Positions 4,950 to 37,066 of a DNA stretch of 39,035 bases are shown piece after piece (position 1 is the first letter of the stretch; every line of letters starts with the position of its first letter). The stretch lies in the NCBI RefSeq assembly GCF_000284415.1, contig NC_017059.1, forward strand, positions 1,664,194 to 1,703,228, read 5' to 3'. Below the pieces are notes generated by a model. That model saw nothing but the letters and a program-made list of their open reading frames with translations. It made no database searches and was not told the DNA's origin. This DNA comes from Pararhodospirillum photometricum DSM 122 (GTDB taxonomy: Bacteria; Pseudomonadota; Alphaproteobacteria; Rhodospirillales; Rhodospirillaceae). Both the position numbers and the translations under genes were made by a program.

Positions 4950-5030
4950 GGAAGGAAGGCTGGGGAGGCGGGCCCCCCAGGAATGGAGGGGTCTGGGGAG
5001 GCCCGCCTCCCCAGCCTTCCTTCCCTCCCT
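4950..5030. repeat. Palindromic intergenic repeat, copy A (composite)
   Basis: Copy A sits directly behind aroB. The core is CTGGGGAGGC (4993-5002), CC, GCCTCCCCAG (5005-5014), preceded by GGAGGGGT and followed by CCTTCCTTCC. A second, partial copy in inverted orientation lies at 4950-4979, so 4950-4974 and 5000-5024 form a perfect 25-bp inverted repeat with a 25-nt loop. The RNA would fold very stably. There is no long U run, so termination on the plus strand is likely but unproven. Confidence 0.85.
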
Positions 5031-5109
5031 CGCTTAATAGGTATCGATTCGCTATTTTTCCGACTAAGATTGAGGCAGTCCCGCCCCGCCCGCCCGCCCC
5101 CTTGAGGCC

Positions 5110-6375
5110 ATGACCGTCACCCTGATTGTCGTCTTGATTCTGATCGTGCTCTCGGCCCTGTTCTCCAGTTCGGAAACAGCGTTGACAGCAGCGTCCCGCC
5201 CCTTGATGCACGAGTTGGAGCGCGATGGCGATGGCCGGGCCAGTGTCGTCAACCGCCTGCTGCGCTCGCGCGAACGCCTGATCGGCACCATCCTCATCGG
5301 TAATACGGCGGTCAATATCCTGGCCTCCAGCTTGGCCACCAGCTTGGCCATCACGCTGTTTGATGAAGCGGGCGTCGCCTATGCCACCGTGACCATGACG
5401 GTGGTCTTGCTGATTTTTGGCGAGATTTTGCCCAAGACCTATGCGCTGATCCACACCAACCCGCTGGCCCTGCGCGTGGCGCCGATCATGGCGGTGCTAA
5501 CGTGGCTGCTGTTTCCCGTCACCACTGTTTTCCAAGGCGTGGTCAAGGGGCTTTTGCATCTTTTGCGAGTTAGGCGCCCCCAGGACGCCGGGGGCGCGTT
5601 GGCCTTGTCGGAATTGCGCGGCGCTATTGAGCTTCACACCGCCGACAGCCCGGACAAGGCAGTCCGGGACGAACGCGCCATGCTGCACAGCATTCTCGAT
5701 CTCACGGACGTGCCGGTCTCGGACATCATGATCCACCGCTCCAACGTGATGTCGATCGACGTCGAGCAGTCCACCCCTGACATCGTGACCCTGGTTCTGG
5801 AGAGCCCCTTCAGCCGCATCCCCCTGTGGCGGGAACGCCAGGACAACATCGTCGGTTTGCTGCACACCAAGGATCTGCTGCGCGCGGTGCAGGGGCACCG
5901 GGGGCCTTTGGAGAGCCTGAACGTCGAGCGCTTGGCCGCCCCCCCCTGGTTCGTGCCCGATACCACCACGCTGTGGAGCCAGCTTCAGGCCTTCCGCCAA
6001 CGGCGCGAACACTTTGCCCTGGTGGTGGACGAATACGGCAGCCTGCTGGGCATCGTCACCTTGGAAGATATCCTGGAGGAAATCGTCGGCGACATCACCG
6101 ACGAACACGACATCGTGCTGGCCGGGGTACGGCCCCAGCCCGATGGCAGCTTTCTCATCAATGGCGAGGTCACGCTGCGCGACCTCAACCGCGAGTTCGA
6201 CTGGGCCCTGCCCGACGAGGAAGCGGCGACTCTGGCCGGCCTAGTCCTTCGGGAATCGCGGTCGTTGCCAAGGGTGGGGGAAATCTTCCAGTTTCACGGC
6301 TTTCGCTTCGAGGTCACCAAGCGGGTGGGCAATCGCTTGTCTCAGTTGCGCGTCACCCCTTTGACGCCGTCTTAA
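5110..6375 (+). CDS. CNNM/CorC-family (HlyC/CorC) membrane transporter with CBS pair
   Basis: 421 residues. The N-terminal CNNM (DUF21) domain has about four hydrophobic segments (residues 1-20, about 55-80, about 90-115, about 118-135). It carries SSSETALTAASR near residue 20 and FGEILPKTYA near residue 100, both family signatures. A CBS-pair domain follows (about 195-325: VPVSDIMIHRSNV, LVVDEYGSLLGIVTLEDILEEIVGDI), then a C-terminal CorC/HlyC domain (about 340-420). Family members act in Mg2+ or Co2+ efflux and metal homeostasis; the substrate here is inferred. It follows aroKB in an order often seen in alphaproteobacteria but is separated from them by repeat copy A, so it probably has its own promoter in 5030-5109. 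Confidence 0.88.
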   Translation: MTVTLIVVLILIVLSALFSSSETALTAASRPLMHELERDGDGRASVVNRLLRSRERLIGTILIGNTAVNILASSLATSLAITLFDEAGVAYATVTMTVVLLIFGEILPKTYALIHTNPLALRVAPIMAVLTWLLFPVTTVFQGVVKGLLHLLRVRRPQDAGGALALSELRGAIELHTADSPDKAVRDERAMLHSILDLTDVPVSDIMIHRSNVMSIDVEQSTPDIVTLVLESPFSRIPLWRERQDNIVGLLHTKDLLRAVQGHRGPLESLNVERLAAPPWFVPDTTTLWSQLQAFRQRREHFALVVDEYGSLLGIVTLEDILEEIVGDITDEHDIVLAGVRPQPDGSFLINGEVTLRDLNREFDWALPDEEAATLAGLVLRESRSLPRVGEIFQFHGFRFEVTKRVGNRLSQLRVTPLTPS

Positions 6376-6387
6376 AAAAGGTCCCCC

Positions 6388-35676: not shown

Positions 35677-36408
35677 GGCGCCGCGCCCCTCCCCCGCCAC
35701 CCGCCGCCCCCGCCCTGGTGCTGGAAGGCGTCAGCGTGGTCCTGCCCGACGACGGGCGGGTTTTGCTGCGCGACCTGAACTGTGTGCCTGCGCGACCCCC
35801 GGGTCGGCCTGATCGGCGCCAATGGTGCGGGCAAAAGCACCCTGGTGCGGCTGTTCAACGGCTTGATGCGGCCCAGCCAGGGCACGGTGTGGGTCGATGG
35901 CCTGGAGGTGGGCCGCGAGACTCGACAGGTGCGGCGCAAGGTGGGGTTTTTGTTCCAGTCGCCCGAGGCGCAGATCGTTATGCCGACCCCGGGCGAGGAC
36001 ATCGCCTTTGGCCTAGCGCCGTTGAAGCTGGGGCGCGCCGAAACCACGGCGCGGGTCGAGGCGGCGCTGGCCCGGGTAGGGCTGGCCGGGTTTGCCGAGC
36101 GGCCGGCCTATGCCTTGTCGGGCGGCGAAAAGCAGCGTCTGGCCCTGGCCGCCGTCTTGGCCCTGGAGCCCGAGATTCTCTTGATGGACGAGCCGACCAC
36201 CCAGTTGGATCTGGCCGGCCGGCGCCTGTTTGCCCGGTTGATGGCCGATTTGCCCCAGCGCGTGGTGCTGGCCACCCATGACTTGGAGCTGCTGGCGCCG
36301 TTTGACCGGGTGTTGGTGCTGGATGGCGGACAGGTGGTGGCCGATGGCCCGCCCGCCGAGGCCTGCGCCTTTTATGAGGCCTTGATCGCGGGGCGGGAGC
36401 GGCCGTGA
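35673..36408 (+). CDS. ECF-type ABC transporter ATPase (BioM-like), apparent frameshift
   Basis: ATP-binding subunit of an energy-coupling-factor importer, paired with the BioN-like gene that follows. Start ATG 35673 overlaps the gshB stop. The first frame gives LVLEGVSVVLPDDGRVLLRDLN; the rest of the domain is in the next frame: DPRVGLIGANGAGKSTLVRLFNGL (Walker A), FLFQSPEAQIVMPTPGEDIAFGL (Q-loop), YALSGGEKQRLALAAVLALEPEILLMDEPTTQLD (signature and Walker B) and ATHDLEL (H-loop). One extra base in the TGTGTG stretch at 35781-35786 explains the break and would give RDLNVCLRDPRVGLIGANG. Total about 244 residues, near BioM/CbiO length. Confidence 0.82.
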
Positions 36409-37016
36409 TCGACGCCTTGCATGTGCCGGGCCGCTCCTGGCTGCACCGCCTGCCGGCTTGGCTCAAACTGGCGGGGCTGGCCGCTCTCAGCACCGGCTTG
36501 GTGCTGGTGGATGACCTTTGGCTCCTGCTGGGGGGGCTGGCAACGGTGACGCTGGCCTATCCGCTGGCGGGGGTCGGGCGGCGACTGGGACGCCTGCTCT
36601 GGAGCTTGGTGCCTCTGGTCGGCCTGATCGGATTGTCGCAGGCCTGGGTGATGGGGCCCGAGGCGGGGGCCGTGGTCTGTGCTCGGCTCACCCCCTTGAT
36701 TCTCGCCGCAACCTTGGTGACCTACACCACCTCTCTTTCGGCGATGATGGCGGTGTTGGAGGGTCTGCTGCGGCCGCTGCGGGTGGTTGGGCTGGAGCCC
36801 CGCGCGGTGGCCTTCGCCTTGAGCCTGACCTTGCGCTTTGTGCCGGTTCTGGCCGGGTTAGCCCGGGAAAGCCGCGAGGCTCTGGCGGCACGCGGCCGCG
36901 ACCGAGCCCTGACGGCCTTGGTCCAAACCCTGCTGCTGCGCGCCTTGCGGTTGGCCGACCAGGTCAGCGAGGCGGTCGAGGCCCGGGGGTTGGAGGCAAC
37001 GCGGCCCAAGAAATAA
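36405..37016 (+). CDS. ECF transporter transmembrane subunit (BioN/EcfT-like)
   Basis: Membrane coupling subunit of an ECF vitamin importer. 203 residues, close to BioN in size and shorter than typical EcfT/CbiQ. About five hydrophobic segments. LTLRFVPVLAGLARESREALAARGRD carries the first Ala-Arg-Gly coupling motif, and QVSEAVEARGLE the second. GTG 36405 overlaps the ATPase stop (GTGA). No substrate-specific BioY gene is in view, so biotin is the likely but unproven substrate. Repeat copy I begins at the next base. Confidence 0.85.
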   Translation: MIDALHVPGRSWLHRLPAWLKLAGLAALSTGLVLVDDLWLLLGGLATVTLAYPLAGVGRRLGRLLWSLVPLVGLIGLSQAWVMGPEAGAVVCARLTPLILAATLVTYTTSLSAMMAVLEGLLRPLRVVGLEPRAVAFALSLTLRFVPVLAGLARESREALAARGRDRALTALVQTLLLRALRLADQVSEAVEARGLEATRPKK

Positions 37017-37066
37017 AAAAAGGACGGCTGGGGAGGGGAGAACTCCCCTGCCCCCTCGGTCGCTTG
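37017..37066. repeat. Palindromic intergenic repeat, copy I (degenerate)
   Basis: AAGGACGGCTGGGGAGG (from 37019) keeps the 5' half of the family, but the 3' arm has drifted: GGGGAG (37030-37035) now pairs with CTCCCC (37043-37048). The flank CCCCTCGGTCGCTT (37052-37065) is the same as beside copy G, which shows descent from the same unit. It starts directly behind the BioN-like stop codon. Confidence 0.78.

Follow-up and report, generated by a model that had tools for sequence, protein, structure and literature searches.

The chromosome of Pararhodospirillum photometricum DSM 122 appears to carry about 1,000 copies (up to three changes, scaled up from 220 in a sample) of a dispersed repeat of approximately 52 bp, which occurs singly or as inverted pairs and lies almost only behind genes. 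We consider it probable (roughly 60%) that this is a REP-like, BIME-forming unit which spread by copying and is kept behind genes, with a role at transcript 3' ends.

Copy number and boundaries of the repeat

The palindrome at the center of the unit occurs in exact form 564 times in the 3.88-Mb chromosome, against none for a reversed-pattern control, and the family that the initial annotation described from nine copies in the window (the whole 39,035-nt stretch of DNA analyzed) is therefore genome-wide. With up to three changes allowed, 227 matches were found in a genome sample of 839,035 bp (21.6% of the chromosome) versus 1–12 for shuffled-arm controls; removal of seven with unclear flanks or orientation left the 220 copies analyzed here. 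A looser stem scan, with 278 matches versus 42, 65, and 147 in its controls, was set aside as too noisy.

The unit can be written AAGGAA-c-GAGGGGT-(CTGGGGAGGC-N2/3-GCCTCCCCAG)-CCTTCCTTTTT. Its 10-bp GC hairpin is flanked by a T-tract (CCTTCCTTTTT) at one end and by a G-rich mirror arm (GAGGGGT) at the other. Conservation among the sample copies is confined to roughly -18 to +12 relative to the stem, in agreement with the similarity beyond the hairpin that had been noted initially. Across 192 copies and 10 stem pairs, 23 two-sided changes keep the pairing versus 76 cells that are one-sided or unpaired.

Within the window, the exact arrangement CTGGGGAGGC-N2-6-GCCTCCCCAG is present in five of the nine listed copies and did not arise in 100 dinucleotide shuffles. 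Scanning with three substitutions allowed recovered nine hairpins: every listed copy except I and, at site A, one further and imperfect hairpin, which folds with its partner into a single long hairpin. All nine listed copies are present, and the count at the eight sites rises to ten hairpins (Table 1). Rfam gave nothing at the gathering score within the window.

Table 1. Copies of the repeat in the 39,035-nt window and their neighboring genes.
Site	Feature	Coordinates	Strand	Context
A	inverted pair; (-) stem 4960-4980, imperfect, and (+) stem 4993-5014	4949..5026		3' of 3-dehydroquinate synthase gene (3839-4948 +, Pfam)
B	unit; stem 6998-7020	6980..7032	+	between convergent DUF2889 gene (6388-6963 +) and recA (7034-8110 -)
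C	unit; stem 16457-16479, 1 change	16445..16497	-	between convergent fliP (15643-16416 +) and HTH gene (16525-16956 -)
D	unit; stem 25850-25872	25832..25884	+	3' of chemoreceptor gene (24109-25788 +)
E	stem 26335-26356, 1 change	26328..26374	-	immediately 3' of RF-1-domain gene (25905-26327 +); inverted pair with F (pair folded)
F	stem 26412-26433, 3 changes	26394..26445	+	partner of E
G	unit; stem 27295-27317	27283..27335	-	between convergent gene without Pfam match (26529-27278 +) and UDG-superfamily gene (27338-28138 -)
H	unit; stem 32736-32758	32724..32776	-	3' of GHMP kinase gene (31813-32718 +)
I	degenerate unit; stem 37028-37050; too diverged for 3-change scan	37017..37068	-	3' of CbiQ-type gene (36405-37016 +)

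Placement behind genes

To place the copies we called genes with a simple model built for this analysis (685 genes, 80% coding), so that some genes are missed and the gap counts are approximate. Among sample gaps of at least 40 nt, copies are found in 56 of 69 convergent, 98 of 277 codirectional, and 16 of 86 divergent ones. The last figure narrows the earlier statement that no copy lies between divergent genes: it is true of called genes in the window, where convergent genes flank B, C, and G, and does not extend to the genome sample. The nearest stop codon is a median of 19 nt away, compared with 49.5 nt when positions are drawn at random within those gaps (the minimum of 2000 trials was 33). 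Copies are far from equally frequent inside genes: only six of 220 fall within called genes, all six within 60 nt of their own gene's stop. In the window, the range of 0–52 nt behind a stop codon given initially suits most stems (7–44 nt), with the exceptions of D (61 nt) and F (84 nt), the far partner of the E/F pair. Stops before copies are also enriched in TAA (98 of 177 versus 128 of 480). In an incomplete set of 167 copies, 25 genes have copies on both sides.

All 32 close pairs (≤130 nt) are inverted, 22 as (-)(+) and 10 as (+)(-). The unit presumably spread by copying, through some enzyme or a RAYT since lost, and selection against copies within genes and promoters may have left mostly those that follow stops. 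At these positions the hairpin would shape the transcript 3' end: read towards the T-tract it would serve as a true intrinsic terminator, and in the opposite reading it would do no more than obstruct exonuclease or polymerase. Counting against the REP-like reading, a mere passenger would hardly be expected in as many as 56 of 69 convergent gaps, and the lack of orientation to the upstream gene, described below, counts against termination.

Relation to transcription terminators

Intrinsic (Rho-independent) terminators consist of a GC hairpin followed by a T-rich tract. The repeat is like them in combining a GC hairpin with a T-rich tract, just 3' of the stop codon, in one reading: in the sample there are 5.88 T per 12 nt after the stem in that reading versus 2.78 in the other, while the intergenic T fraction of 0.194 corresponds to about 2.3. 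It is unlike them in that it shows no preferred orientation relative to the upstream gene and in that the whole sequence, not the structure alone, is common to the copies. The bidirectional terminators envisaged in the initial annotation are half supported, with a T-tract in a single reading only and no preferred orientation.

The copies might instead be the standard transcription terminators of this species rather than a mobile-type repeat, their likeness maintained by direct selection and possibly by gene conversion, an explanation we regard as rather unlikely. One copy would then be common to two convergent genes, and pairs would serve both directions. The high occupancy of convergent gaps, the T-tract in the forward reading, the TAA enrichment, and the short distances from window stops (7–61 nt, except F) are in favor of such a role. 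However, of the copies in codirectional gaps, 53 are oriented like the upstream gene and 64 opposite to it (p 0.36), so that over half would terminate the wrong way. Moreover, termination requires a common structure rather than 52 bp of common sequence, copies are few in the sister species, and those in divergent gaps do not fit either. Strand-specific wobble, a sign of RNA-level selection, is likewise lacking outside stem position 2 (16 G.U versus 21 A.C); at that position 21 T.G stand against no C.A, an excess that may reflect one subfamily. A crude scan based on the incomplete 167-copy set found other terminator-like hairpins in 15 of 24 convergent gaps scored as copy-free, in 8 of 24 in Pararhodospirillum oryzae, and in 15 of 30 in the relative G020.

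Distribution among relatives and evidence on mobility

The family is sparse in P. oryzae; one other genus also carries it, and it was not found in 70 further genomes of the bacterial family. That P. oryzae manages with few copies counts against the REP-like reading with its 3'-end role. In favor of that reading, in one clean case a complete inverted pair fills a gap of 132 bp that measures 11 bp in P. oryzae; outside the genus, the neighboring gene has only distant homologues (about 43% identity or less among the matches listed, bar a few very short ones), and thus no outgroup polarizes the case. Longer gaps were dropped as a sign of insertion, the picture being mixed, with five of nine comparable gaps longer than in P. 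oryzae and four shorter. Conserved synteny was seen at 1 of 22 copy-bearing convergent gaps and at 0 of 13 copy-free ones, numbers too small for a judgment on synteny breaks and taken from an incomplete copy set. Target-site duplication at fixed offsets, as in MITEs, was not significant: the best of 3,782 offset pairs gave 8 matches of 4 nt versus 1.5 expected (n = 216), and its offset of -17/+18, near the edge of the unit, is within chance for 3,782 trials. On these mixed gap lengths, the insignificant duplication, and the unpolarized clean case, movement of the unit is no more than putative, which counts against the REP-like reading.

The initial annotation had suggested looking for a RAYT-type transposase. 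Searches with Y1_Tnp (PF01797) found none in the P. photometricum genome even at E ≤ 10, and the two relatives that carry the family, G001 and G020, gave no match at E ≤ 0.001; 20 of the 61 genomes searched have one. The repeat is therefore not a RAYT-bearing REP system at present. The REP tags are nearly absent within 6 nt of the stem on either strand (GTAG at 1 of 220 copies, CGTC at 4 of 220). The want of both tag and transposase also speaks against the REP-like view.

A triplex-type layout

The GAGGGGT flank mirrors the GGGGAG of the stem, which is the layout of intrastrand triplex motifs of the PIT/BoxC type. The T-tract and this mirror arm flank the hairpin on opposite sides, so that a single strand could double back on itself twice as a class-I purine intrastrand triplex, in the putative order GAGGGG - TCT - GGGGAG - loop - CTCCCC. 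Under the ITxF rule (three matching stems of at least 7 nt, one mismatch), 166 of the 220 copies qualify, and these make up all but nine of the 175 triplex motifs in the sample; a shuffled sample has three motifs. Holder et al. (2015; PMC4666352) list Rhodospirillum photometricum DSM 122, probably the genome studied here, among those with more than 500 potential intrastrand triplex motifs composed almost purely of G and C. The earlier remark that no description of the family was known is thus qualified: the repeat itself was not found described in the literature searched, and motifs that are mostly its copies appear to have been counted there.

The selected function could be the triple helix itself, as a DNA-level block or pause of replication or transcription or as a nucleoid signal, with the hairpin merely a part of it. 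We think this improbable. Besides the agreement with the published rule and the near-identity of triplex motifs and copies, it can draw on the conservation of the GGGG arm, which at 0.95–0.97 per base equals that of the CCTT side, and on a third strand that tracks the stem across subfamilies (GGGGAG with GA or GT, GGGGAA with AA or TT, GGGGGA with AG); opposite the stem A, the substitutions are T (13), the triplex-compatible base, C (6), and G (4). Nevertheless, 54 copies fail the rule, mismatched combinations occur (CG accompanies 6 of 13 GGGGGA stems, and GA both GGGGAA stems of G020), and the independent events are few. By footprinting, Holder et al. (PMC4666352) did not find the E. coli motif to form a stable triplex in vivo.

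We offer only tentatively the view that the repeat represents a third, untagged REP-type superfamily, marked by a triplex-forming mirror arm that covaries with the hairpin stem and spread without a RAYT. Two genera would share it in the form of related inverted pairs whose outer flanks differ, and in one species it would have multiplied to about 1,000 sites, occupying most convergent gene ends.

DNA-uptake signals of the DUS/USS type are also found as inverted pairs at gene ends, and in such systems single, intragenic copies dominate. A short motif with thousands of arms inverted 3' of genes recalls them, but we disfavor this origin as extremely improbable, since the 10-mer occurs 1,482 times, 1,128 of them as arms in the 564 exact palindromes, and single intragenic copies are nearly lacking.

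Comparison with known systems

A family of this size in which no RAYT was found lets one ask what else spreads REPs, or how long a family outlasts its transposase, and about 1,000 copies in one genome versus few in its congener amount to a natural experiment on the effects of repeats at transcript ends. Like PIT/BoxC/TM-ECO elements as described by Holder et al. (PMC4666352), the repeat has a purine mirror repeat with a hairpin partner, a 3-nt first loop, and many intergenic copies, some in inverted pairs. It is class I whereas TM-ECO is class II, and it sits behind ORFs whereas TM-ECO is more often upstream than downstream of them (PMC4666352); the TM-ECO consensus as printed there has no match on either strand of the 839,035-bp sample. 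Earlier work cited by the same authors saw no terminator activity in the E. coli PIT/BoxC elements, which counts against a terminator role for the repeat.

The rules given for REPs by Di Nocera et al. (2013; PMC3733652) are convergent and unidirectional gaps, positions near 3' ends, inverted dimers with tandem dimers rare, and copy numbers very uneven among relatives. The present repeat shares with their GTAG and CGTC superfamilies a short GC palindrome, hundreds of extragenic copies that follow genes in gaps of the convergent and codirectional kinds, inverted dimers, and unevenness among relatives, and, like the CGTC families as presented there, it is without a known transposase. The REP-like copied family proposed initially is supported by its copy number, extragenic position, exclusively inverted pairs, and sharply bounded unit. 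Unlike REP/BIME elements, the repeat has neither tag at the stem, which sits between a T-tract and a triplex-type mirror arm. The element joins REP repeats and intrastrand triplex motifs, subjects handled separately in the literature covered.

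Abundance and Structure of the Repeat Unit

The repeat is abundant in Pararhodospirillum photometricum DSM 122, where the window occupies bases 1664194-1703228 of a single contig of 3,876,289 bases. Its exact palindrome occurs 564 times in the genome and its reversed control never, and the 10-base arm has 745 + 737 occurrences compared with 19 + 48 for the reversed control. A sample of this genome (41 stretches, 839,035 bp, comprising 40 × 20 kb across the chromosome and the window) holds 227 palindromes with at most three changes, 220 of them with clear flanks, compared with 1–12 palindromes in each of five shuffled-arm controls run without the flank filter; extrapolation from this sample gives about 1,000 copies in the genome. 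A further scan, for hairpins preceded by a GGGG arm, returned 192, and 2–7 when other 4-mers replaced GGGG.

In oriented copies, conservation covers the stem together with about 18 nt preceding and about 12 nt following it, and ends there. The left flank reads AAGGAA (about 0.4–0.7 per base) and then GAGGGGT (0.80–0.97), the right flank CCTT (0.91–0.95 per base) and then a T-rich tract. In 207/220 copies the loop is 2 or 3 nt long; loop sequence, in an incomplete copy set, is variable. Across 192 copies and 10 pairs, 23 stem cells are changed on both sides yet paired and 76 are wobble or unpaired; two-sided changes are far above the expectation for independent changes, but the copies have common ancestry. 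At stem position 2, T.G replaces the expected A in 21/192 own copies and the mirror change is absent (0), an excess that perhaps reflects one subfamily or selection on one strand. Three copies with a GGGGAAGC stem agree completely in their flanks, which suggests duplication of a longer stretch there.

Within the window there are ten hairpins at eight sites, including all nine copies listed in the initial annotation; the inverted pairs at sites A and E/F each fold into one long hairpin. Ordinary genes flank the hairpins (3-dehydroquinate synthase, CNNM/CorC, DUF2889, recA and fliP, together with a chemoreceptor, an RF-1-domain gene, a UDG-superfamily gene, a GHMP kinase and CbiQ), and an Rfam search of the window gave no match at gathering score. 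A segment of about 1.3 kb in the window has no gene called by our own gene model, and two ORFs there have no Pfam match.

Coordinates of features discussed in the text (L-numbers denote sampled stretches)
Feature	Position	Remark
GGGGAAGC-stem copies	L031:3104, 11401, 15099	genome 40001-60000
Segment without called gene	window 32776-34093	
ORF	window 32860-33321	
ORF	window 33478-34260	extends beyond segment 32776-34093
Five-hairpin composites (examples)	L155:8340-8600, L159:14968-15240	G020
Related inverted pairs in one divergent gap	L063:5818-6201, L288:13489-14008	both Pararhodospirillum species

Position and Orientation Relative to Genes

Among gaps of at least 40 nt, a copy is present in 56/69 convergent, 98/277 codirectional and 16/86 divergent gaps (convergent vs. 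divergent, p = 2.7e-15), and in 58/83 convergent gaps of any length. Copies lie a median of 19 nt from the nearest stop codon (≤60 nt in 152/182), compared with 49.5 nt under random placement in the same gaps, which never fell below 33 in 2000 trials; the six copies inside called genes all lie ≤60 nt from their own gene's stop. Within the own-genome sample, TAA accounts for 98/177 stops that have a copy within the next 40 nt vs. 128/480 elsewhere (p = 1.6e-11). The purine-rich flank often continues directly from the stop codon. The TAA excess may come from a codon supplied by the repeat or from a preference for TAA genes.

Copies in codirectional gaps show no orientation bias (53 with the upstream gene, 64 against; p = 0.36), and the T-tract occurs only in the forward reading (5.88 vs. 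2.78 T per 12 nt). Every one of the 32 close pairs is inverted: 10 are (+)(-) with a spacing of 40–46 nt and 22 are (-)(+) with 33–90 nt, seven of these at exactly 77.

Potential Intrastrand Triplex Motif

The mirror repeat GAGGGG-TCT-GGGGAG connects to its hairpin partner CTCCCC in a layout that corresponds to a class-I purine intrastrand triplex as defined in passages of Holder et al. (2015; PMC4666352). Their rule as worded there (stem of 7 or more, one mismatch) captures 166/220 copies and misses 54; these 166 copies make up most of the 175 such motifs in our sample, compared with 3 in a base-shuffled sample. Passages of the same paper list Rhodospirillum photometricum DSM 122 as one of the genomes in which motifs almost purely of G and C number more than 500, so that count very probably included this repeat. 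The opening of its introduction and most of its results do not present the element as a repeat. A literature search, to which subscription papers were mostly inaccessible, found no other mention.

Across three genomes, in which stem/third-strand combinations represent few independent events, the third strand tracks the stem (GGGGAG with GA or GT, GGGGAA with AA or TT, GGGGGA with AG); mismatched third strands also occur (for example, CG in 6/13 GGGGGA stems, GA in both GGGGAA stems of G020, a genome of another genus in the same family).

Distribution in Relatives and Signs of Movement

Pararhodospirillum has three named species. With a slightly relaxed pattern, copies number 535 in P. photometricum, 11 in P. 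oryzae and 142 in G020, and 70 other genomes of the family have none; with a stricter one, a set of 384 further genomes from the class, without P. oryzae and G020, yields 0. When 1.14 Mb of P. oryzae sequence, a sample partly picked for known copies, was scanned more loosely, additional, diverged copies emerged; some carry the T-tract flank, others the GCGGGGG flank that is typical of G020. There, units are arranged in a composite of about 190 bp that runs from an outer hairpin through a unit, a central hairpin and an inverted unit to a second outer hairpin, with mirror arms pointing inwards, like the (-)(+) pairs of P. photometricum. The central hairpin varies in sequence between copies and keeps its self-complementarity, and the outer hairpins likewise fall under the triplex rule.

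Given these copies in relatives, including a divergent gap with related inverted pairs in both species, the family seems to predate the split of P. photometricum and P. oryzae, and seems since to have expanded in the former or shrunk in the latter. The outer stem pairs in that gap differ yet stay matched (CT/AG in P. photometricum; AC/GT and GC/GC in P. oryzae). One gap of 132 bp is filled by a complete inverted pair and has an 11-bp counterpart in P. oryzae; among nine comparable gaps, five are longer in P. photometricum and four shorter. Copies show no significant target duplication, and a search for Y1 transposases found none in P. photometricum, P. oryzae or G020, the genomes that carry the family.

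Classification and Putative Function

The most likely role of the repeat is that of a hairpin at transcript ends, with true termination in one orientation only; for REPs, passages of PMC8049555 cite effects on termination and mRNA half-life. Because the superfamily tags (GTAG, CGTC) are nearly absent, no RAYT was found and the unit bears a triplex-type arm, it is filed under neither named superfamily. Its layout and position are those of a REP/BIME-type family, identical position rules being printed for REPs in passages of Di Nocera et al. (2013; PMC3733652).
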